Source of the DNA: Ignavibacteria bacterium
GTDB lineage: Bacteria > Bacteroidota > Ignavibacteria > Ch128b
DNA: 64,000 bases
Assembly (NCBI GenBank): GCA_013177855.1
Contig: JABLYA010000001.1
Coordinates: 605,231 to 669,230, forward strand
Direction: 5' to 3'
In this document: one piece after another, positions 15,587-44,403 of the stretch
Layout of the letters: each line of letters begins with the position of its first letter
How positions within the stretch are numbered: position 1 is the stretch's first letter
Made by a program: the position numbers and the translations under genes
Notes under the pieces: generated by a model
Databases searched by the model: none
What the model was told of the DNA's origin: nothing
The model's input: only the letters and a program-made list of their open reading frames with translations

Positions 15587-17833
15587 TTAATAAACCGATT
15601 CTGTTGCTCTTGTTCGTTTTAAGAAAGTCAAACTCATCACAAGTAATATCAAAAAGATTATCATACTGAAAGCAGCAGCATAACCATATCTATAAAGATT
15701 AAATGCAGCTTTATAAACATATGATACGAGAATATGAGTTTGATCCGAAGGTTCACCAGCATTACTAACAAGCCATACAACATTTAAGTTATTAAATGTC
15801 CAGATAATTCCGAGTGTAATTGCTGGTATCATAACAGGCTTGATTAATGGAATTGTAATTTTACGAAGTTTTTGGAACCAATTTGCCCCTTCAATTTCAG
15901 CTGCTTCATACAACTCATTTGGAATGCTTTGAAGTGCACCGAGTGCGATCACCATCATAAAAGGAAATCCAAGCCAAACATTCGTAATGATTACTGCAAT
16001 GAATGCTTCAAGAGGACTTTTTAACCACTCAACTGGAGGAAGTGATAGATATTTTGTTAAGATTATATTGATAGCTCCATATTCATAATTAAACATTCCA
16101 CGCCAGGTTAAAGCAACAATGTATTGTGGAATTGCCCAGGGTAAAATCAATAAAGTTCTAAAGATTGTTTTACCCGGAATTTTTCGATTTAATAAAATTG
16201 CAAGTGCAACACCAATTGTCACATGAAAGAACACATTAACAACTGTCCAGATAATTGTTTTTAAAAAAACCGTATAAAAAATTGGTTCAGAAAAAACTTT
16301 TATATATTGATTAAAGCCGATGATACTCCAATCGTTTATGTGCCTTAAATTCATATTTGAAAAAGATAAAACAATATTGTAAACAAACGGATAAATAATG
16401 ACCAGTATCATCACAATAAATGCGGGAAGGACAAGATAATAAGCAAAACTATTTCTCGATAAATCTTTTATGAATGCTAAAATTGTCTTCCGTGATAAAA
16501 ACAAGACTACAATTAATCCAATAGTAAATGTTAAGATAAAAATCAGCTCTGCATAAGTTGAAGAAACATCTTCATTCATTTCCTGTATCTTTTTTACAGC
16601 TTCTTCCTGCATTTTCTGAGCTGCGATTTCAGGTTTCATTGCACCGCCAAGCACAGCCTGATAATATGGACGCATCGCATCCCAGACAGCTCTCATTTCC
16701 GAGATAATTGGCATTGGTTTGCCAAGCTCAATTTGCCTTTGCGAGTTAATCAAAATCTCGTTTTCTTTTATGAATGGATCATTGTAAACTGATTTATGAG
16801 TTGGGAAGGTATTTAATTCTTTTGCAGTTTCGAGTTGCTGTTCAGGTGCAAGTAAAAATTCGAGTAACAATTTTATAGCGGGTAATTTTTCTGGATTAAC
16901 ATTAGCATTAATTGAATATCCTTTCCCTGAAATCATCGGTGCTGCATAAAGTCCTGTCTCTTCAATTAATGGCAATGGAGCAATTCCATAATCAATTCCT
17001 GCTTTGCCATAACTTGCCCAGCTCCAATCTCCATTTATAATCATACCAGCTTTACCTTCCTTGAAAAGAACATCAGCAATATCATAATCAGCTTCGCCGG
17101 GAATAATTTTATACTTATCTCGCAGATCAGCAATGAATTTCAAACCTTTTATCATTGCTTCAGAGTTGAGTGTTGGGTTGTTTTTTTCATCAAAAACCCA
17201 GCCGCCAAATCCAGTCAAAAATGGTATAAAGAAAAACGGCTCCGTATAATTCCAGACCAAACCATATTGCTCTGGCTTTCCATCGTTATTAAAATCTTTT
17301 GTGATTTGTTTACCAATTTCAATTAATTCTTTATCTGTTTTAGGTGGATTTTTGACAAGCTTTTTGTTATAAACAAGTGCAAGATGATTACCAAGCTTAT
17401 CGGCTATCATCCACAGATGATTATTGCTCCAGATCAACCCTTTCTCATTAAACTGATTTAAGAATTTATTTGAAAAAATTGTATCGAGAGGAAGAATTAT
17501 ATTCATTATTTCAAATGGTCCAACTTGATCTTGCGGACCATAAACAATCTCAGGTCCCTGACCACCAATTGCTGCAATAATAAACCCACTTCTTAATTCT
17601 TCTGTTTCCTTATAAATCTGATTGACGCTGATTTCAGGATGTAATTTCATAAACCTATCGAGTTGACGCTGAAGAACTTCTCGTTCATCAACTCTCATTT
17701 GATGCCAGATCGTAATTTGAATTTGATTGTTAGGTTTTTTACTGCAGGAGAGAAAGATGAATGAAATGAAAAGAATTGTTAAGATTAAAAGATTAAATTT
17801 TGATTTTATATACTTCATTTCTGTCTTCTTCAA
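15587..17833 (-). CDS. Fusion of sugar-binding lipoprotein and MalF-like ABC permease
   Basis: 748 residues, about the sum of a MalE-like (~400) and a MalF-like (~300) protein. The N-terminus has a signal peptide ending at a probable lipidated cysteine (FLSC, C30), followed by a family-1 solute-binding domain (ITIWHQMRVDEREVLQ..., GGQGPEIVYGPQD, KAGMIINGDWSW). After about residue 420 come a membrane helix, a short linker and then a binding-protein-dependent permease with six helices and the EAA loop EAAEIEGANWFQKLRKITIPL. It should capture oligosaccharide and pass it directly to its own channel half. The GH13 amylase in the same run makes maltodextrin a likely substrate. The fusion is seen in one continuous frame without any stop. 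Confidence 0.88.
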   Translation of the reverse strand: MKKTEMKYIKSKFNLLILTILFISFIFLSCSKKPNNQIQITIWHQMRVDEREVLQRQLDRFMKLHPEISVNQIYKETEELRSGFIIAAIGGQGPEIVYGPQDQVGPFEIMNIILPLDTIFSNKFLNQFNEKGLIWSNNHLWMIADKLGNHLALVYNKKLVKNPPKTDKELIEIGKQITKDFNNDGKPEQYGLVWNYTEPFFFIPFLTGFGGWVFDEKNNPTLNSEAMIKGLKFIADLRDKYKIIPGEADYDIADVLFKEGKAGMIINGDWSWASYGKAGIDYGIAPLPLIEETGLYAAPMISGKGYSINANVNPEKLPAIKLLLEFLLAPEQQLETAKELNTFPTHKSVYNDPFIKENEILINSQRQIELGKPMPIISEMRAVWDAMRPYYQAVLGGAMKPEIAAQKMQEEAVKKIQEMNEDVSSTYAELIFILTFTIGLIVVLFLSRKTILAFIKDLSRNSFAYYLVLPAFIVMILVIIYPFVYNIVLSFSNMNLRHINDWSIIGFNQYIKVFSEPIFYTVFLKTIIWTVVNVFFHVTIGVALAILLNRKIPGKTIFRTLLILPWAIPQYIVALTWRGMFNYEYGAINIILTKYLSLPPVEWLKSPLEAFIAVIITNVWLGFPFMMVIALGALQSIPNELYEAAEIEGANWFQKLRKITIPLIKPVMIPAITLGIIWTFNNLNVVWLVSNAGEPSDQTHILVSYVYKAAFNLYRYGYAAAFSMIIFLILLVMSLTFLKRTRATESVY

Positions 17834-35086: not shown

Positions 35087-36445
35087 TTACGCGAGTATTT
35101 TCAATTCCTTAATTCTCCTGTACAATGTAGCTGTGCTGATGCCAAGCATTCGTGCGGTTTTTTCTTTGTCATAATCATTCTGAGCAAGAGCTTTTTGAAT
35201 GTAATCTTTTTCAAACTCGTTTATAGCGATATCAAGAGTTTTAAACGTACTTATAGAACCATTAGACTGCGTCAGATTATTTATGTATGAAGGCAATTCA
35301 TTTAAAGTAATGTAATCTCCCTTACAAAAAATAACAGCTCGTTCAATAACATTCTCAAGTTCGCGTACTTCACCTTTCCAGGTGTAATTAATTAAGGCTT
35401 TCATTGCATCTGCATCGACGCCTTTAATATTTTTATTCATCTCTTTACGATATTTATCAAGGAAAAATTCAACAAGTAGAGGGATGTCTTCAACTCTTTC
35501 ACTTAAAGATGGCAAATGAATTTCAACAACATTTAATCTATAATAAAGATCTCTTCGAAATCTTCCTGCTTCCACTTCTTCGTATAAATCTTTATTAGTA
35601 GCTGATATAATTCTAACGTCAACGGGAATTGGTGTTGATGAACCGACAGGAATAATTTCTTTTTGTTCGATCGCCCGCAATAATCTTACCTGAGATTGAA
35701 GAGGCATTTCACTAATCTCATCTAAAAATAATGTTCCACCATCTGCAGCCTGAAAATATCCTTCTTTATCTCTAATGGCACCTGTGAAAGAGCCTTTTTT
35801 GTGTCCAAATAATTCACTTTCAATTAATGTTTCAGGTATTGCGCCACAGTTTACCACGATGAATGGTTTATCTTTCCTTGGACCATTATAATGAATTGCT
35901 CTGCTAACAAGTTCTTTACCTGTACCGCTATTACCTGTAATCAGAACACTGCTATTTGTCCCTGCAACTGACTTTATCATCTCAAACACTCTTTGCATTG
36001 CGGGACTCTTACCAATGATATTATCAAAAGAATATTGCTTTTGTAATTCGCGGCGATAAAGTTGATTCTCGATCACTAACTGTTTGTAATCGAGCAGTCT
36101 TTTAATCTTTAAGATCAATTCATCGAAATCAATGGGTTTAAGGATGTAATCGCTGGCGCCTAATCTTAATGCTGCGATTGCCGTTTCGAGTGAACCATAG
36201 GCTGTGATAAAAATCGATAACAACTGAGGATCTATTTTGGAAACTTTTTCTAAAAGCTCTATTCCCTTCATTTTTGGCATTTCTATATCAGAGATCAGCA
36301 AATCATATTTATTATTTAAATACTTTTCATAAGCCTCTTCACCGTTCGATGCTTCATCAACTTCGTAGCCTTCCTGTCTTAAAATTAATGCAATGTTTTC
36401 TCTTAAAATTTCTTCATCGTCTACGATTAAAATTCTTGCTTTCAT
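35087..36445 (-). CDS. Sigma-54-dependent response regulator (NtrC/PilR-like)
   Basis: 452 residues: a receiver domain (1-120; phospho-acceptor D53 in LISDIEMPKMK), an AAA+ domain with Walker A GNSGTGKELVSRA and the sigma-54 contact loop GSFTGA (a conservative variant of GAFTGA), and a Fis-type helix-turn-helix at the C-terminus (TARMLGISTATLYRRI). It activates transcription from -24/-12 promoters after phosphorylation. It overlaps the kinase gene by 4 nt, and a matching -24/-12 promoter stands before the pilin-like gene about 8 kb upstream in the same block. Confidence 0.93.
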   Translation of the reverse strand: MKARILIVDDEEILRENIALILRQEGYEVDEASNGEEAYEKYLNNKYDLLISDIEMPKMKGIELLEKVSKIDPQLLSIFITAYGSLETAIAALRLGASDYILKPIDFDELILKIKRLLDYKQLVIENQLYRRELQKQYSFDNIIGKSPAMQRVFEMIKSVAGTNSSVLITGNSGTGKELVSRAIHYNGPRKDKPFIVVNCGAIPETLIESELFGHKKGSFTGAIRDKEGYFQAADGGTLFLDEISEMPLQSQVRLLRAIEQKEIIPVGSSTPIPVDVRIISATNKDLYEEVEAGRFRRDLYYRLNVVEIHLPSLSERVEDIPLLVEFFLDKYRKEMNKNIKGVDADAMKALINYTWKGEVRELENVIERAVIFCKGDYITLNELPSYINNLTQSNGSISTFKTLDIAINEFEKDYIQKALAQNDYDKEKTARMLGISTATLYRRIKELKILA

Positions 36446-37974
36446 AGTTTATTCCATGTTTCAATATTAATTGGTAAAACGATTGTAAACGTTGAGCCTT
36501 CGCCTTCAGTACTATTTACTCTAATCTCGCCCTGAAAGCTTTTTATAATATTATAACTAACCCACAATCCTAAGCCAGTTCCTTCACCCACTTTTTTAGT
36601 TGTGTAGAATGGATCGAAAATTTTTTCCATTGTTGATTCAGACATTCCAATTCCATTATCTGAAATTGAAATATAAACTTTATTCTCATCACGATAAGTT
36701 TTTGCAACAATTTGTGGATTAGGATTAAAATAAATCATTCGATCTGCATCAATGCAAAGAGCATCAATAGCGTTGATTAAAATGTTTAAGAAAACCTGCT
36801 GCAATTGATCTGGGACAAGATAAAGAATTGGAATATTCGAACCGTATTCCTCAACAAAATTTATTCCTTTTGCTTTTTTACTGACCCTTGCGATCTCTAT
36901 TGCAGATTTTAAAACTTTGTTAATTTCTGTTGATTGAAGTTCATAGGTAGATTGACGGGAAAAATTGACAAGGTCTCTGATTATCTTGGAGATACGATTT
37001 ATCTGACTTTTAATTAATTCAAGCTTTTGATTTGTAAATTCATCTTTATTAGTTCGTTGAATGACTTGAACAAGAGAAGATATGGAAGCAAGAGGATTAC
37101 CGACTTCGTGAGCAAGACCTGAAGCAAGTAAACCCATACTTTCCATTTTCTGAGCATGAATTAATTGCTGTTCGAGTTTTTTCTGTTCTGTTTTATCGCG
37201 ATGAATTCCAAAGTAGCCAATTAGTTTCCCATTCTCATCAATTATTGGTGATACTAATAAATCAGTATAAAAAAGAGTTCCATCTTTTCTTTTATTAACA
37301 ACTTCACCAATCCAGACCTTGCCCTGCTTAATCGTATCCCACATATTTCTCCAGAATTCTTTTGAATGTTTGTGTGAACTAAAGATATTAGGATTTTTAC
37401 CAATTAATTCTTCTCTTGTGTAGCCACTTGATCTTTCAAACGCTGGATTGACATAAATTATTTTTCCCTCGATATCAGTAATTTCCAGCGGATTGACAGT
37501 ATACTCAGCTACATTTGCGAATCTGACTAAATCAAGTTCTTTCTTTTTTTGAATAGAAATATCTCGCGCAAATACAAAACATAATCTAGTATCGCTTTGA
37601 TTATTTGAGTGGTTAACCTGGAAGAAAGGTGCAAGAATAACTTGCACAAATTTCTTATTTTCACCAGCAACAAAAATTGTCTCAATCTCTTGATTTATTC
37701 CTTCTTTAATAGATTTATTAAAGACTTTAGCAAACTCGTCTCTTTTATCTTCACTTATAAAATCAATAAAGTTTTTATTTACAATTTCTTGTTTTGAGGA
37801 AAGAAAAAACTCGGATGCAGCTTTGTTACAGTGAAGTATAGACATTGATTGGTCGATGACAAAACTAATATCTGGAAGAATATCAAAGAAATAACAAGGA
37901 ATATGAAATGTTTGATGCTTATGATTTGTTTTATCTTCCGTTACCAAAATTTTGTCGTTCAAATTTATTTCCAT
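36442..37974 (-). CDS. PAS-PAS sensor histidine kinase
   Basis: 510 residues with no membrane helices: PAS domain about 25-140, second PAS with PAC about 155-262 (DIEGKIIYVNPAFERSSGYTREEL), HisKA with phospho-acceptor H289 in GLAHEVGNPLAS, and an HATPase domain with N, D (DNGIGMS) and G boxes (GEGTGLGLWVSY). It should sense a cytoplasmic signal and phosphorylate the adjacent NtrC-type regulator, whose gene it overlaps. It starts 113 nt after the last gene of the secretin operon. Confidence 0.93.
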   Translation of the reverse strand: MEINLNDKILVTEDKTNHKHQTFHIPCYFFDILPDISFVIDQSMSILHCNKAASEFFLSSKQEIVNKNFIDFISEDKRDEFAKVFNKSIKEGINQEIETIFVAGENKKFVQVILAPFFQVNHSNNQSDTRLCFVFARDISIQKKKELDLVRFANVAEYTVNPLEITDIEGKIIYVNPAFERSSGYTREELIGKNPNIFSSHKHSKEFWRNMWDTIKQGKVWIGEVVNKRKDGTLFYTDLLVSPIIDENGKLIGYFGIHRDKTEQKKLEQQLIHAQKMESMGLLASGLAHEVGNPLASISSLVQVIQRTNKDEFTNQKLELIKSQINRISKIIRDLVNFSRQSTYELQSTEINKVLKSAIEIARVSKKAKGINFVEEYGSNIPILYLVPDQLQQVFLNILINAIDALCIDADRMIYFNPNPQIVAKTYRDENKVYISISDNGIGMSESTMEKIFDPFYTTKKVGEGTGLGLWVSYNIIKSFQGEIRVNSTEGEGSTFTIVLPINIETWNKL

Positions 37975-38087: not shown

Positions 38088-39098
38088 TTACCAATCTACC
38101 CAGTTAGATACGATAAATTTTGAAGATTTAAGCTTTTGCTGAATATTATTGATAGCCCTTGAACTATAATTTATGACGGCAGAACCTGTTGCAGAAATAT
38201 CCACGCTTGGACCAACTACCAGCATTCCGCCATATATTGCAGAGTTTCCCGAAGCAGATGCAGAAATTTGAGTATTACCATAAACGATAACTAATCCCTG
38301 ATAACTAAAATTACCAGCACAACTCATATCCCCATAAATTATTAAAATACCAGCGCCCGATGCATTCCCTGCAAAATTCGCATTACCCGAAATAAAAGTA
38401 ATTTTAGGTTCTTCCGGCGTGCCCAGGATTGTACCTGTTGAATATGTTCCTGAAGGTAATATAATATCAGCGGATTGTATATACTGATTTATTAACTCAC
38501 TAAGGTTTTGTGAATTTTGATTTACCAAAACACTTGGAGATGGAGTTGAACCAATTATCTGTGGTTTTACATTATTTGGGATCCCATTGACTATCCTTAT
38601 ACTATCATTAATATTTTCCACCGATATTCCACTCACTGGCTGGGATGTTCCTGGAGTTCCATCGGAATTTTTATCAATGCCGCTAATCAAAATATTCCCA
38701 TGAAGCGAAATATCAATATTCGAAGATGAAATACTCATAGCAGCATTGATTTTTGGTAAAGTGATTATATTCCATATTGTTATCACAGAAGCATTAGCTT
38801 TCTGTTTCATATAATTTGCGTTTACAGAAATTAGAACTGTGTCCGTTCCTTTGATAGAAACATTGTAAGATCCTCCAAGCAATAAATTATCATTAAAATT
38901 ACCTCTCAATTTTTTGTTTAATCTGAGTTTATTTAGTGTGATATTCAAAGCTGAATTTGCAATGTATTTGGCTTGCTCAATATTAAATGCAGAAATTACC
39001 CGATCAGTAATTCGGGTTGAACTACCTCTTAAATTTAAAACGACGAAAATAATCAGCAACAAAGTAGCAGAAGTTATTATTAAGACTTTATTCCCCAC
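38088..39098 (-). CDS. PilX-like pilus-assembly protein with repeat-rich C-terminus
   Basis: 336 residues. It starts from GTG with a ribosome-binding site (TAGGTTAAATGTG). A hydrophobic helix begins at residue 5 (VLIITSATLLLIIFVVLNL), then comes a segment like the PilX N-terminal domain (AFNIEQAKYIANSALNITLNKL). The C-terminal half is rich in Gly, Ala, Ser and Asn with short beta-like repeats (GNANFAGNASGAGILIIYGDMSCAGNFSYQGLVIVYG). Minor pilin proteins of this kind sit at or near the pilus tip. It has no prepilin leader. Last gene of the secretin operon. Confidence 0.6.
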   Translation of the reverse strand: MGNKVLIITSATLLLIIFVVLNLRGSSTRITDRVISAFNIEQAKYIANSALNITLNKLRLNKKLRGNFNDNLLLGGSYNVSIKGTDTVLISVNANYMKQKANASVITIWNIITLPKINAAMSISSSNIDISLHGNILISGIDKNSDGTPGTSQPVSGISVENINDSIRIVNGIPNNVKPQIIGSTPSPSVLVNQNSQNLSELINQYIQSADIILPSGTYSTGTILGTPEEPKITFISGNANFAGNASGAGILIIYGDMSCAGNFSYQGLVIVYGNTQISASASGNSAIYGGMLVVGPSVDISATGSAVINYSSRAINNIQQKLKSSKFIVSNWVDW

Positions 39099-39100
39099 AT

Positions 39101-39646
39101 TTAACCTATATTTTTGGGTCTAACAATAAATTTATCTTCAAAAAATAAATAGCATCCATTAACGGGATACTCAGATTCAATTCTCAAAGAGACAATGATG
39201 AATCTTATAAATAATTTTTCATTAGTAGGAATACCATTTACATCCAGATAATCAAATTTAAATTTTGTCACTCCATAAGGCGAAATCGTTTGTTCATTAC
39301 TATTTTTTACTAATATTAATTTATAATCCGAAGGATTTTGAGAATTTTCTGCCAACTCACCTATTCTTATTTCAAGAGAATCTACCAAACCATCTCCATC
39401 TTCATCACAGTAAAATTTTATTTTTAAAGAATCAGCCTCAATTATGGGATTCACAGGTGACCTGAAACCGATTTTCTTTAAGTAATACTCCAATATCTGT
39501 TGAGTTGTTATAAAATTTTGTAAAACTTTTTCTTCTTGTAATTCTTCCTGCTGGCTTTCGTTTATAAAAACTGTAGTTCTTGTTAGTATCAAAATAATCG
39601 ATGTGCCAATTACTATGCTTATTAATAGGTAAATTGGATGATTCAT
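39101..39646 (-). CDS. Minor-pilin-like protein (PilW-like)
   Basis: 181 residues. One hydrophobic helix from residue 4 (PIYLLISIVIGTSIILIL) is followed by a helix and a beta-rich domain that contains FYCDEDGDGLVDS, a possible calcium site. The size and position within a pilus operon fit PilW/GspJ-type minor pilins. No G-F-x-L-x-E prepilin sequence is present. It abuts the preceding gene with a one-base overlap at 39646. Confidence 0.5.
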   Translation of the reverse strand: MNHPIYLLISIVIGTSIILILTRTTVFINESQQEELQEEKVLQNFITTQQILEYYLKKIGFRSPVNPIIEADSLKIKFYCDEDGDGLVDSLEIRIGELAENSQNPSDYKLILVKNSNEQTISPYGVTKFKFDYLDVNGIPTNEKLFIRFIIVSLRIESEYPVNGCYLFFEDKFIVRPKNIG

Positions 39647-40128
39647 TACCAGACAGAAAAAATTTGTTTGAGTTCAAATTTCTTTGCTTGATTTTGCCCA
39701 AAGCACTTTATAGTTACTAATTTATAAAAAGTTGGGCTCGAGCTTATGATATCTGGATTATCTTCTTTTACATAATTTACAGTGACTTGTAGAGTATAAA
39801 ATTTACTGTTTTCCAGATTTAACTCTCTCGAATAGCCGTTATAATCATCGATATCATCGTATTCGGGATAAATTTCATTATCTGGACCGAGCATTGAAGT
39901 ATTTGTTAAACTATCTCGATTGATTGAAGTCATTGAAATAAGTTTTTCGTCGAAAATTTTTGATCTCATTTCTTCGAAAAGATTTTTTGCTTCGTTTACT
40001 GAATGGTACAAGTTTCTTGCTTCAATTTTTTCATCTTTTGTTTCTATGTTAGCTCGATTAGTCAAAATTATAATTGTTGAAAGCAAGATTAATGATGCAA
40101 TAAGTATAATAAGTTGACTCGAGTTCAT
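39646..40128 (-). CDS. Minor-pilin-like protein (PilV-like)
   Basis: 160 residues. It starts MNSSQ and then immediately a hydrophobic helix (LIILIASLILLSTIIIL), followed by a polar helix (IEARNLYHSVNEAKNLFEEM) and a beta-rich domain. The shape is that of a pilin or pseudopilin, but again there is no cleavable leader or Glu at +5. It overlaps the secretin gene by 4 nt. Confidence 0.5.
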   Translation of the reverse strand: MNSSQLIILIASLILLSTIIILTNRANIETKDEKIEARNLYHSVNEAKNLFEEMRSKIFDEKLISMTSINRDSLTNTSMLGPDNEIYPEYDDIDDYNGYSRELNLENSKFYTLQVTVNYVKEDNPDIISSSPTFYKLVTIKCFGQNQAKKFELKQIFSVW

Positions 40129-41339
40129 TTTGATTTTATTTGTGATTTAATTTTTTCAATTTGTTGATCATAATCTTCGATCTTGTTTCTAATTAAATCC
40201 TTTTCTCTCGAAACCACCCTCTCGTAAAGTGATGGATTTAGCTTAGCCTTTAAAACAATAATTAATTCCTTACGTGCTGAAGTTACTACATCCCTTCCAG
40301 CAAGATATTTAATTCCAAAAACCCACCAGGGCAAATCTTTTAAGAAAGGAATACCAGTACGTTCTTTTTTGTCTTCATTAATAAATAATCCACCAATTAT
40401 AGTTTCTTCTCCGTCAAGTAGTAAAACATTTGTGTTGGCTTTTGTTCTTTTGACCTCGGTAGAAATTTGTCCAGGAATTGCTGAACTTCTTTCAACGTTT
40501 AGATCGAGCAAGATGTAGTCTTTACCATTCTCGTTTAAAACATAAGGTGTGACTCTAATAATTGTTCCTGTGCTGTAAAATCTTTCGATAGTATTTCCTG
40601 CAAAATCTTTTTCTCTGGTTGAAAAATCTGAACCAACCTGAATTTCCCCTTTAACTCTGTCTCTTACTGTAATTTGTGGACTTGCGATAACTTCACCTAA
40701 TTGATTGGACTCAAGGAAATTGAATAATGATGTAGCTTTAGCAATTGAACCAAAGACATTTACATCTCCTCGAATTCCAATATCAAGTGCTCGTGAATCA
40801 GTTGTTGAATTCCAATCGAATATTTCATTAGAAGTTTCTCCGAATCTTATTCCGACATCGGCACCACCTTTTGAGAATAGCGTTCGCCAGTTGATTCCTC
40901 TTTCTTTTGCTTTGTTTACATCGAGTTCAAAAAATACTGCTGAAATGGTTACTTCCCTGGTTCTAAAATCGACACCTTTTAAAATGTCCGGTATTTCTGC
41001 CTCAGAAAATTTTTGCTGAGGAACTAATTTGATAAAATCTTCTTTTTCAACTAATTCAAGGTTATGTAACTTGGCAATTATTTCAAGTGCTTTATACCAG
41101 TTGAGATTTGTGATTTCAATTCCAACTGGTACCGGCATATTTTGATCAAGTATAATCACTTTATTAATAACTTGTTTACTTATCCTGCTCAAAACATCGA
41201 TTGCCTGATCAACACTTGCTGTTTTAGAAATTGTAACTAAATTTTCAGAATCCTGTGAAAGCATCGCTTTCAAACTTCGATAGCTTTGAGCTGAGATGCT
41301 TAATGAGAAAAATAAAACTAATATCAAAATCTTTTTCAT
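40125..41339 (-). CDS. Secretin (PilQ/GspD family, short form)
   Basis: 404 residues with a signal peptide (1-18, ending ISAQ). Residues ~30-120 look like a secretin short N-domain (STN-like/N0). The secretin core follows: LFNFLESNQLGEVIASPQITVRDRVKGEIQVG, then the VIxVTP-type strand TGTIIRVTPYVLNENG and the closing NTNVLLLDGEETIIGGLFINE with GIPFLKDLP. It forms the outer-membrane ring through which a pilus-like fibre or substrate passes. It is shorter than PilQ (about 700) because N1-N3 and AMIN domains are few or absent. It overlaps the genes on both sides by 4 nt. Confidence 0.88.
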   Translation of the reverse strand: MKKILILVLFFSLSISAQSYRSLKAMLSQDSENLVTISKTASVDQAIDVLSRISKQVINKVIILDQNMPVPVGIEITNLNWYKALEIIAKLHNLELVEKEDFIKLVPQQKFSEAEIPDILKGVDFRTREVTISAVFFELDVNKAKERGINWRTLFSKGGADVGIRFGETSNEIFDWNSTTDSRALDIGIRGDVNVFGSIAKATSLFNFLESNQLGEVIASPQITVRDRVKGEIQVGSDFSTREKDFAGNTIERFYSTGTIIRVTPYVLNENGKDYILLDLNVERSSAIPGQISTEVKRTKANTNVLLLDGEETIIGGLFINEDKKERTGIPFLKDLPWWVFGIKYLAGRDVVTSARKELIIVLKAKLNPSLYERVVSREKDLIRNKIEDYDQQIEKIKSQIKSK

Positions 41340-42223
41340 TTTTTTTGCTCCTTATCTTCAAGAACTAATGTAACTCGTTCAAGTATTCCACCTTTGTTTA
41401 AGAGAAATTGACAATTGTGTTGATCATAATTTATTTTCGTTAAGTATCCAAGATAAACTTCATCACCTTCCATTAGTGTGTATGAATTACCCTTTTTATC
41501 AATTAAATAAACTGCATCAGGCATAATGGCAAGTAACTTTGCACCTTCAACTTCAAATAATCCTTGATCGTTTGGTGGAATGTCTAATTTGATTAATGAT
41601 TCAAAATAATCTGAAACATAGGTCAAAAACTTTTGATCTTTTCTCTGGATTAAAGTATCCAGATTAAATTCAGGTGAAGTTGTATAAAGATTTTCAATAT
41701 GAAATGTAAAAACTACTTTTTCCTCTAATTTCCCTGATTTATCAGGTTCATATGTCTGCCTGATTTCATTCAAATGAAGTCTGTAAATCTCTGGTGAACT
41801 TTCAAACAAGTTCATCAAAGAAAATAGATCTCTGAATTTACCGCTCCCAGTAATCTTAAATCTATCGATTCTCAAAGGTGGTTTTTCTTCGGTAGAAACT
41901 CGATCAATGTTAATATCCAGACGATTTTCAAGAAGATTGATTTTGCTTAGGATTTTACTATATGCATCTACCTGCGAAGGATAGTAAGGAATAATTTTAT
42001 CCGTAACTTTTATAAATGACGAAAGTGAATCAATCTTTTGTTCGAGCTCATAAATTACTTCATCAGGAGATTTATTACTTAGAAGTTCGTTGGTCTGAGA
42101 CTTGCTCTGTTCATTTAATTTTTTCATTTCTCTTGTGTATGAATATTCTACAAAATAATAACTGGCAGCTGCAGTTATTAGTAATAAGATCAATAAGAAT
42201 ATTCTTCGAGATTTTCTTTTCAT
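41336..42223 (-). CDS. PilO-like and PilP-like fusion protein
   Basis: 295 residues. After a short basic cytoplasmic tail there is one membrane helix (IFLLILLLITAAASYYFVEY), a coiled-coil stretch (residues ~30-90) and a ferredoxin-like domain of the PilO sort (IDRFKITGSGKFRDLFSLMNLFES). The last ~80 residues (FEVEGAKLLAIMPDAVYLIDKKGNSYTLMEGDEVYLG) look like PilP or a GspC HR domain, which touches the secretin. It would link the inner-membrane frame to the outer-membrane ring. The assignment rests on fold pattern and gene order. Confidence 0.6.
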   Translation of the reverse strand: MKRKSRRIFLLILLLITAAASYYFVEYSYTREMKKLNEQSKSQTNELLSNKSPDEVIYELEQKIDSLSSFIKVTDKIIPYYPSQVDAYSKILSKINLLENRLDINIDRVSTEEKPPLRIDRFKITGSGKFRDLFSLMNLFESSPEIYRLHLNEIRQTYEPDKSGKLEEKVVFTFHIENLYTTSPEFNLDTLIQRKDQKFLTYVSDYFESLIKLDIPPNDQGLFEVEGAKLLAIMPDAVYLIDKKGNSYTLMEGDEVYLGYLTKINYDQHNCQFLLNKGGILERVTLVLEDKEQKK

Positions 42224-42224
42224 T

Positions 42225-43730
42225 TTAATTTTTAACCAAAGTTGTTAACTCAAATTGATAAATCTTTTTATTTCTAATCTCATAAATGTAGATATTCTTA
42301 AGTTCAGCATTGTGAAGAGCAGCCATCAAATCTGGTATTTTCGATCGGTCGATTGCCAATCCCTTAATCAAAAATAAAGATGGATTTTTTTCATCAACGG
42401 CAATTGATGTGAGCCATATCTTATTTTTATGCGGGTTGAAAGATTCAATTAATAAAAGTTGATCTGTAATTCTCCTTAAATTTTTCTCAGCCTCTTCTAA
42501 GTTCTGTTTATATGCATTTAAAATTTCATAACGATTACTTAATTGATTTATCCTAGCTAAATCGGCAGATGAGATCGACTTAATAACTTCCATTCTTGAA
42601 ATTTGCGCTCGAAATTTTTTCAAATTGCTTGACCGCTCTTTATACATCTGAAGTGAAAAAAACATTAAAGCTCCAATTAACATCACTAAAAAGATTGACA
42701 GGAAATCAATCTTCTTGAAAAATGAAATTTTAGAAAGTCTTTTTGTTTGAAATTCTAAGTTCTTCTTAATATTAGAGAATCGGAAAACTTCATCACAAAC
42801 CGCAACTAAAGGTAAAATATATGATTGAGCTTTATGAACAGCTTCTTCTTCAAGCGAGGAAAAGTCAAAAATTTGTAAGTCGAGAAGATCTACGCTTGCG
42901 AAAGGAAAACTCTGCTTAACTGCTAAGAGCAAATCATCATTAATTTCACCTGTAAGAATGATATTTGTCAATTCAGTTACATTGGCATATTCCATCTCTA
43001 AAACAATCTTACTTGATAGAAAACTAACAATCCCCTGCCGTTCTAAGCTTAAACCGAGATATTTGTTAATGTGAGTTACTTTACCATCTTTAATGAAAAT
43101 CAATCTAATTGAATCAGTTCCAATATATATCAAAAGGTATGTTTCATCTTTAGCGGGTTTATAAATGTTCAAAGTATAATTAATAAGTGCGATATCAGCA
43201 CTTCGAAGAGGTAATATATCAAGCGTTTTTGACTCGGCTATTTCAGCTAAAGATTTGAGCTCATTTAAGATTGGGATATTTTCTTGAACAACAGTTGAGA
43301 TTAAAAAATGATTTTTATACTCAATGTAATCGATTCGGTCTGGTGAATAATCAATGTTGGTATTTTCTTTCCATTCAGCGGCTATTTTACTTTTTAAATC
43401 ACCCGGTTTCTTGCCATTATCAAACTGATGAACTAAATAAGATATATATGGTTCGGTTATAACAGGAATAAAAGGTAATTCTTCTATTCTATAAAAATTC
43501 GAGATTTCAACAAGGTTAGTTTTTATTTGATTTGGCTCATCAAACTCGGTAATATCAAAATCCAGATCAGCTGTTTTTCCACCATTAATTTCTTTAGTTG
43601 AAAAAACAAATTGATTTTCAGAACTCGGGACAGAAATAAAATTCAAAATTTTTATTTTGCCACCCTGTCTTTCAACACAAGCTACTTTAATCTCAAAACC
43701 ATCTTGAAATACCGAACAATATTTTTTCAT
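42225..43730 (-). CDS. PilM-like and PilN-like fusion protein
   Basis: 501 residues. Residues 1-320 resemble the actin-like PilM fold: an N-terminal strand pair, YLLIYIGTDSIRLIFIKDGKVTHINKYLG as the second nucleotide segment, and ILTGEINDDLL. At about 345 a single membrane helix begins (DFLSIFLVMLIGALMFFSLQM), followed by a coiled coil and a ferredoxin-like periplasmic domain, as in PilN. So the cytoplasmic ring and its membrane anchor are one chain. Strong ribosome-binding site (GAGGG). It starts 78 nt after the pilin-like gene, beyond a terminator hairpin. Confidence 0.65.
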   Translation of the reverse strand: MKKYCSVFQDGFEIKVACVERQGGKIKILNFISVPSSENQFVFSTKEINGGKTADLDFDITEFDEPNQIKTNLVEISNFYRIEELPFIPVITEPYISYLVHQFDNGKKPGDLKSKIAAEWKENTNIDYSPDRIDYIEYKNHFLISTVVQENIPILNELKSLAEIAESKTLDILPLRSADIALINYTLNIYKPAKDETYLLIYIGTDSIRLIFIKDGKVTHINKYLGLSLERQGIVSFLSSKIVLEMEYANVTELTNIILTGEINDDLLLAVKQSFPFASVDLLDLQIFDFSSLEEEAVHKAQSYILPLVAVCDEVFRFSNIKKNLEFQTKRLSKISFFKKIDFLSIFLVMLIGALMFFSLQMYKERSSNLKKFRAQISRMEVIKSISSADLARINQLSNRYEILNAYKQNLEEAEKNLRRITDQLLLIESFNPHKNKIWLTSIAVDEKNPSLFLIKGLAIDRSKIPDLMAALHNAELKNIYIYEIRNKKIYQFELTTLVKN

Positions 43731-43759
43731 AGCAGCCCTCTTTTTTTAAATAAAAATAA

Positions 43760-43793
43760 AACTCGGAAAATCCCGAAAAGGAATTTCCGAGTT
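43760..43793 (-). terminator. Terminator or attenuator after the pilin-like gene
   Basis: 10-bp stem AACTCGGAAA / TTTCCGAGTT with a 14-base loop, followed on the minus strand by TTTTATTTTTATTTAAAAAAAGAGGG. It lies 15 nt beyond the pilin-like stop and before the PilM-N gene, so it would limit transcription of the machinery relative to the pilin. Confidence 0.85.
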
Positions 43794-43808
43794 GTAAATG
43801 AAATCAAA

Positions 43809-44192
43809 TCAATTGTTAATCGTAACAGTAATATTATCTGGCGTCACTACTGCGGTTGCTTTAACTTTATTTTTACCATCATTACCAGTTTCATTACCAG
43901 TACCAACTATGGTGACAACAGTCGCACCAACTGTTGCAGTATAAGTACCATTACCCGTAGTTGTTAAAGATGGTGGGATGGTGAAACCTGTAAATGAATT
44001 GCCTCCACCACCAAGCGCAGTTGGTTTTCTATAATATTGTTGTGCGAATGCACCAATATTGTTCAAATCTGCAATGACAGCATCTCTATTAGCGCTTTGT
44101 GCACTTGTAGAGGCAAGATTGATTCCCACTACTATAGCAATACCGACAATAATGACTCCGATTACGATTAATAATAATTGTTGTTGACCCAT
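43809..44192 (-). CDS. Pilin-like major subunit without a recognisable leader
   Basis: 127 residues with a strong ribosome-binding site (AAAGGAGTTAAAAAATG). It starts MGQQQLLLIVIGVIIVGIAIVVGI, so the hydrophobic helix begins at residue 5, then comes STSAQSANRDAVIADLNNIGAFAQQYYRKP, which is the amphipathic rest of a pilin helix, and a GGGGNSF loop with a small beta-rich head. There is no basic leader ending in G before a phenylalanine, and the usual Glu at +5 is missing. I recall similar uncharacterised MGQQQLLL proteins in Ignavibacteria. A sigma-54 promoter stands upstream and a terminator downstream, both consistent with a strongly expressed, regulated fibre subunit. Confidence 0.7.
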   Translation of the reverse strand: MGQQQLLLIVIGVIIVGIAIVVGINLASTSAQSANRDAVIADLNNIGAFAQQYYRKPTALGGGGNSFTGFTIPPSLTTTGNGTYTATVGATVVTIVGTGNETGNDGKNKVKATAVVTPDNITVTINN

Positions 44193-44246: not shown

Positions 44247-44262
44247 TGCAGTAAATATGCCA
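44247..44262 (-). promoter_or_regulatory. Sigma-54 (-24/-12) promoter of the pilin-like operon
   Basis: On the minus strand TGGCATATTTACTGCA matches TGGCAC-N5-TTGCA with the invariant GG and GC separated by exactly 10 bases. The predicted start is about 44 nt before the ATG at 44192. A sigma-54 activator gene lies in the same block. Confidence 0.75.
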
Positions 44263-44403
44263 AACAGTAAAATTACTGTAGTTGATAAAAAATTTTGAAA
44301 TATGATTTGATTTTTAAGAAATGATTAAGAATGATTTGAAAGCAGTTTTCGAGGAAATGAAAAAATTACAAGTAAAAAAGTAAAACTGTAAAAAGTTCAG
44401 TGA

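Follow-up and report, generated by a model that had tools for sequence, protein, structure and literature searches.

The window analyzed here is a 64-kb stretch of DNA (G000:C1:605231-669230) from a genome of 3.66 Mb rated 100% complete; positions are those of the window unless a genome or locus is named. Open reading frame calls confirmed seven genes at 38088-44192, all on the minus strand, most neighbors being joined by overlaps of 1-4 nt or separated by gaps of 1-2 nt. The initial annotation, made from the sequence alone, had described seven genes in tight order at these coordinates, and this held. The block and the features that adjoin it are the following.

44247..44263, minus strand: sigma-54-like promoter TTGGCATATTTACTGCA, ~60 nt upstream of the pilin start
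43809..44192, minus strand: leaderless major pilin, MGQQQLLLIVIGVIIVG..., 127 aa (Shine-Dalgarno AAAGGAG, no upstream start, AF2 model, structural matches)
42225..43730, minus strand: PilM-N-like fusion, 501 aa (weak HMM matches and conserved place in the operon)
41336..42223, minus strand: PilO-P-like protein, 295 aa (gene order, size, weak PilN/O-like match)
40125..41339, minus strand: PilQ-type secretin with a signal peptide, 404 aa (PF00263, E 2e-24)
39646..40128, minus strand: leaderless GspI/PilV-like minor pilin MNSSQLIILI, 160 aa (AF2 model, GspI-type structural matches)
39101..39646, minus strand: leaderless minor pilin MNHPIYLLIS, 181 aa (homologues all leaderless)
38088..39098, minus strand: leaderless minor pilin MGNKVLIITS, GTG start, 336 aa (ORF call; homologues leaderless)
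36442..37974, minus strand: PAS histidine kinase adjoining the operon (HMM search)
35087..36445, minus strand: sigma-54 response regulator (PF00158, E 3e-73; PF00072; HTH_8)

The secretin has PilQ as its best NCBIfam match (E 1e-24, under the cut-off of that model) and PilQ 9x0w as its best PDB match (E 1.6e-15). The PilM-N-like protein gave a weak PilN match at residues 437-496 (E 0.09) and a weak match to the PilM-like Amuc_1101 family (E 0.004), and the C-terminus of the PilO-P-like protein gave a weak GspC-like match. The labels of fused PilM-N and fused PilO-P proposed earlier are possible, and rest on weak HMM matches and gene order. The MNHPIYLLIS minor pilin is probably GspJ/PilW-like, on the basis of gene order and a weak profile match only, and the MGNKVLIITS protein could, by inference, be GspK/PilX-like.

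From their position, the histidine kinase could be a PilS-like regulator and the response regulator could be PilR-like, both roles being inferred. The sigma-54-type motif at 44247..44263, which has this sigma-54 activator gene in its vicinity, is the sole exact match in the window. Across the family, such sites were found 5' of the pilin in 9 of 110 cases, against 6.6 expected from random windows, so that a family-wide sigma-54 promoter is not supported.

A second operon carrying the motor

The initial annotation had pointed out that no assembly ATPase, PilC or PilD gene lies in the block, which held for the block itself, and had suggested a search of the genome. This search found PilB, PilC and PilT in a second operon ~200 kb from the block (locus L006, G000:C1:848936-860575), and PilD nowhere. 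The machine as a whole is therefore not lacking its motor, which corrects the earlier picture. The second operon encodes two MGQQQ pilins (98% and 92% identical to the window pilin), PilC, PilB, a PilT-family ATPase, PilMN-like and PilOP-like proteins, a secretin and two leaderless minor pilins starting with MGRTV and MGRAV. PilB matches PF00437 with an E-value of 1.6e-103 and has PilB as its best NCBIfam and PDB match; PilC contains two T2SSF domains and matches the PDB PilC 3jc8 (E 3e-28); the PilT-family ATPase scores 321 bits with TIGR01420, for a curated cut-off of 319.1. For PilB, PilC and the secretin, the best PDB matches are the pilus versions. We consider it likely, as part of the main reading given below (about 0.8 as a whole), that the block and this second operon are the two loci of one type-IV-pilus-like machine.

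A survey of the family, also suggested at the outset, showed that the operon order is kept. Contig ends truncate many of the 79 loci; the full order pilA-C-B-T-MN-OP-Q is seen in 43 of the 79, and pilA and pilC are adjacent in 59.

Some observations on these genes can be added. The 98% protein identity between the window pilin (43809-44192) and the core-operon copy (G000:C1:857242-857622, L006 15240-15623), despite the 200 kb between them, suggests a recent duplication or gene conversion between the major pilin genes. The C-terminal regions of the large GspK/PilX-like minor pilins (38088-39098 in the window; 16318-17445 and 17464-18576 in L006) are long, and that of the window protein gives a weak bactofilin-like match (PF04519, E 0.02, under cut-off).

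Leaderless N-termini and predicted pilin folds

The four pilin-like reading frames of the window start exactly at MGQQQLLLIV, MNSSQLIILI, MNHPIYLLIS and MGNKVLIITS. As the ORF caller takes the first ATG, GTG or TTG after the previous stop, frames that begin at these residues have no upstream start in the window. For the major pilin, the AAAGGAG sequence lies just 5' of the ATG and the upstream open frame amounts to one codon. A class III signal peptide is a leader of 6-26 aa ending in Gly-1 (PMC4471445). Such a leader, the Gly-1 site and a Glu at +5 are absent from all four proteins; the earlier claim that no basic leader, G/F site or Glu+5 is present therefore held, with the single Lys at position 4 of the MGNKVL minor pilin to be recorded.

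These N-termini are not a peculiarity of one assembly. An MG[QT]QQLL start is found in 131 homologous pilins from 79 loci, and MGQQQLLLI forms the exact first nine residues of 125 of them. Their upstream open frames have a median length of four codons and a Shine-Dalgarno-like sequence precedes most of them. Among the 114 pilins tested, 111 have no in-frame ATG, GTG or TTG between the preceding stop and MGQQQ; in the other three the upstream start is a stray one in a short frame, and none yields a class III leader. Since the N-terminus is shared by 131 homologues and 111 of the 114 tested lack an upstream start, chance is ruled out, and our computation shows that the coding sequence starts directly at a mature-type N-terminus. 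The homologues of the minor pilins are likewise leaderless, the GspI-like one having M1 and Q5 invariant in 10 out of 10 sequences.

With the start Met counted as residue 1, Gly2 and Gln5 are each present in 131/131 major pilins. Gln5 occupies the position of Glu5, and the initial view that Glu+5 had been lost must be corrected in this respect: the packing position is replaced, not simply lost. The first 24 residues are uncharged in all 131 pilins, and residues 25-40 contain on average 1.6 Lys/Arg and 1.2 Asp/Glu.

The AF2 model of the major pilin (42 sequences, pLDDT 87, pTM 0.70) displays a helix at residues 2-55 followed by a four-stranded sheet, and that of the GspI-like minor pilin (39646-40128; pLDDT 87) a helix at residues 3-55. 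Foldseek alone gave no significant match to the PDB with these two models, the lowest E-values being 0.66 and 0.35. When the Foldseek candidates were aligned with VIA-align, places 1-13 for the major pilin were all type IV pilins or pilin fusions, the best being PilV from Neisseria meningitidis (Z 9.5). The full-length PAK pilin 1oqw aligned with a Z-score of 7.5 over 115 residues, and residues 2-126 aligned on residues 1-124 of the gonococcal pilus 5vxx. For the GspI-like minor pilin, places 1-6 were GspI pseudopilins or an Xcp pseudopilus model (Z 6.4-7.5). The fold assignment thus relies on AF2 combined with VIA-align, at Z-scores of 6-9.5, and pilin families topped the list only with VIA-align. 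Sequence and profile comparison of the leaderless pilins with conventional pilins was not significant, and neither was profile-profile comparison with the conventional GspG/I/J-like pilins of the same phylum, the one exception being a weak A4-G match (probability 33.7%, with residue 8 aligned on residue 8). Altogether, the major pilin and one minor pilin are predicted by modelling to be type IV pilin folds.

Upstream starts giving normal leaders, or models without a pilin fold, would have refuted the earlier proposal of a distinct pilus-like or secretion machine. The former were looked for and not found, and both models made, for two of the four proteins, are pilin folds. The proposal is therefore supported.

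Prepilin peptidase and PilC clades

In the genome containing the window, neither Peptidase_A24 (PF01478) nor the N-methylation motif (PF07963) found a match, and a broader peptidase profile, A5, which comprises nine members including a divergent Bacteroidota form, returned nothing. In the leaderless genomes without PF01478, the A5 matches did not rise above noise (E-values of 0.002 or higher, frequently with stops in the sequence). This profile recovered the positive controls G023, G207, G211 and G375, the G207 and G023 sequences being part of A5 itself, and it recovered no peptidase in G242, so its sensitivity may be incomplete. A peptidase of an unrelated family remains possible and cannot be excluded by homology. 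What is shown by computation is a core operon with PilB, PilC, a PilT-family ATPase, putative alignment-type proteins and a secretin, in a genome without a recognizable prepilin peptidase.

This situation recurs in other genomes. The peptidase is absent from 16 of 19 genomes reached through named loci, among them both Melioribacter roseus MAGs, Chrysopegis kryptomonas and a complete Ignavibacterium sp. chromosome. Within 61 relatives, the genomes with the pilin are almost the same as those with PilC, 33 having both, and the peptidase is present in three. Across 392 genomes of the phylum, the pilin was found in 132, and 131 of these contain PilC (Fisher p 1e-60). A peptidase was detected in 15 of the 132 pilin-bearing genomes and not in the remaining 117, many of them single-contig, and all 15 genomes with both leaderless pilin and peptidase possess a separate conventional PilC. 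Inheritance of the pilin together with its own PilC clade across many genomes is thereby shown by computation.

The PilCs of leaderless operons score 511-876 bits against the PilC of the window's genome, conventional PilCs only 62-120 bits, and the two form separate clades with supports of 0.83 and 1.0. The neighborhoods of conventional PilCs readily yielded class III prepilins, also in genomes G017 and G023, which carry leaderless systems as well (MKLIKDEK/GFTLIELMV in G023, for example, the slash marking the cut). In the 79 leaderless loci, no class III prepilin resembling a pilin was found. The search for leaders thus works, and the leaderless class is a discrete one.

Several side observations were made during this survey. 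The PilC of the leaderless system (L006 13647-15023) is ~450-500 aa long, against ~375 aa for conventional PilC of the same phylum, and its extra N-terminal part could possibly relate to the handling of unprocessed pilin. Genome G327, a carrier of the leaderless system without the peptidase, also contains a conventional PilC gene with an in-frame TAA (G327:C1:2518637-2519617), perhaps what is left of a decaying second system. A divergent Peptidase_A24-like protein of ~164 aa with a D...GxGD motif is encoded near a conventional PilC in L231:9-350 (G207) and in the sister genomes belonging to family f36. Its PF01478 score lies under or only slightly over cut-off, and Pfam surveys therefore undercount prepilin peptidases in this family. 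Finally, three records labelled Calditrichaeota/Calditrichota (L107, L143, L147) contain the same leaderless pilin adjoining PilC, one without peptidase and two with a peptidase elsewhere in the genome, and the system may thus extend beyond Bacteroidota.

Relation to known systems and proposed mechanism

The leaderless system resembles T4aP by its PilB, PilC and PilT-family ATPases, PilQ-type secretin, pilin fold and minor pilins, and, as far as weak PilN/PilM-like matches and conserved gene order indicate, by PilMNOP-like proteins. It differs by the lack of a class III signal peptide, Gly-1 and prepilin peptidase, by Gln5 in place of Glu5, by a longer PilC forming its own clade, and by PilMN and PilOP that look fused. 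Among T4aP features, PilB, PilC, PilT (a T4aP hallmark), a diderm secretin and the pilin fold of the two modelled subunits are present, but the class III signal, Glu5 and Peptidase_A24 are absent. We consequently do not file the system as a canonical T4aP but as a leaderless variant of the type IV filament. The T2SS pseudopilus shares with it the GspI-like minor fold, the secretin and, tentatively, the GspIJK-like gene trio, whereas the leaderless system has a PilT-family ATPase and component matches that are best with pilus versions. For a GspG-type prepilin with class III signal and for GspO/PilD, no N_methyl or Peptidase_A24 match exists in the own genome, and of the GspIJK tip complex the GspI-like fold was found, J and K being assigned by gene order only. 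Conventional T2SS/Com-like loci of the same phylum (G017 and G023, for example) also encode, in the same cells, a platform of the PilC family along with pilin-like genes, but their leaders end at G/F and are followed by Glu5, and in all 15 genomes where Peptidase_A24 co-occurs with the leaderless pilin, these loci come with that peptidase. Archaeal type IV filaments often lack Glu5 (PMC4471445), yet their pilins keep class III signals, which dedicated prepilin peptidases cleave. MSHA loci contain no peptidase gene, but those genomes hold the peptidase elsewhere (PMC6668835), whereas the leaderless genome has none genome-wide. Reviews treat the signal peptide and the peptidase as universal and defining, and count the peptidase as ancestral (PMC4471445, PMC6668835). 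The open-licence literature searched yielded no description of leaderless type IV pilins and no mention of the MGQQQLL string.

Our main reading, which we hold likely (about 0.8), is a PilB/PilT-driven T4aP-like machine whose pilins are born mature, leader cleavage being bypassed. It rests on computation, without filament, N-terminus or motility data, and the filament, the N-terminal state and the insertion mechanism are inferred. The nascent pilin would enter the membrane by the Sec route, its uncleaved N-terminus acting as a signal-anchor and its C-terminal domain ending up in the periplasm. The start Met, or Gly2 after Met removal, would stand in for N-methyl-Phe1 and the invariant Gln5 for Glu5, the pilin being born assembly-competent without any maturation or N-methylation step. 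PilB and PilC would then drive its polymerization into a filament that passes through the PilQ-like secretin and is retracted by PilT, and the GspI/J/K-like minor pilins would form the tip of the filament.

Two difficulties should be raised here. The leader normally fixes pilin orientation by the positive-inside rule (PMC4471445); with no positive charge in the N-terminal flank of any of the 131 pilins, this rule does not favor the required orientation and another determinant must act. Glu5 mutants of normal pilins do not homopolymerize (PMC4471445), so that a working Gln5 is unexpected and needs its own explanation. A neutral, perhaps formylated N-terminus beside Gln5 could provide one, as a testable idea and not as a result.

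Other explanations must be weighed against this reading. One would be that the machinery assembles a short pseudopilus in the periplasm, for type II-like secretion, and not a surface pilus, as suggested by the minor pilin at 39646-40128, which models best on GspI pseudopilins, by the GspI/J/K-like trio and by the weak GspC-like match of the PilOP-like C-terminus. On the other hand, a PilT-family retraction ATPase is encoded in the core operon, pilus versions are the best matches of PilB, PilC and the secretin, as pilus pilins are of the major pilin, and GspIJK-like minor pilins also occur in T4aP (PMC4471445); we thus find a pseudopilus unlikely. One could also suspect that a leader was overlooked, through an upstream start, a frameshift or a misassembly, and that PilD was missed. 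The general rule that the known subunits of type IV filaments are all prepilins (PMC4471445) and the weak scores of some divergent Bacteroidota peptidases with PF01478 speak for it. However, the absence of upstream starts in 111/114 pilins and the recurrence of the same N-terminus in independent assemblies refute the overlooked leader, and the broader profile is blank in the own genome, 117/132 pilin-bearing genomes being without peptidase, so that this explanation as a whole is all but excluded.

That some other enzyme, such as Met aminopeptidase or an unrelated membrane protease, trims or modifies the N-terminus as a functional substitute for PilD cannot be dismissed by homology searches, which are blind to an unrelated enzyme. 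The specificity of Met aminopeptidase makes Met removal possible when Gly2 follows, as it does in all 131 copies. Nevertheless, there is no leader to remove, the minor pilins starting with MN and MS have no conserved cleavage site, and the core operon of the own genome contains no unassigned membrane gene, which leaves this substitute very unlikely. Lastly, the loci could be what remains of a decaying pilus system after the loss of pilD, decay alone being able to explain the absence of this gene. The near invariance of the first nine residues in 131 copies, the operon order kept across many families, the near-universal pairing with PilC and the multiple pilin copies refute such decay, and we regard it as practically excluded.

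The reading that we prefer remains that of a T4aP-like machine with pilins born mature. A bolder version, which we hold slightly less likely than not, would be that a lineage-wide class of type IV filaments has replaced the prepilin route, with orientation achieved without a positive leader and a neutral N-terminus/Gln5 pair replacing the N-methyl-Phe1/Glu5 packing pair, possibly with formyl-Met retained as residue 1. If the main reading is true, a widespread machine keeps its motors, its platform and its fold without the cleavage step, and leader cleavage would be dispensable, the peptidase having been thought indispensable for every such machine. It would also become testable what sets the membrane orientation of a pilin, what roles N-terminal charge and Glu5 play in assembly, and what purpose N-methylation serves.
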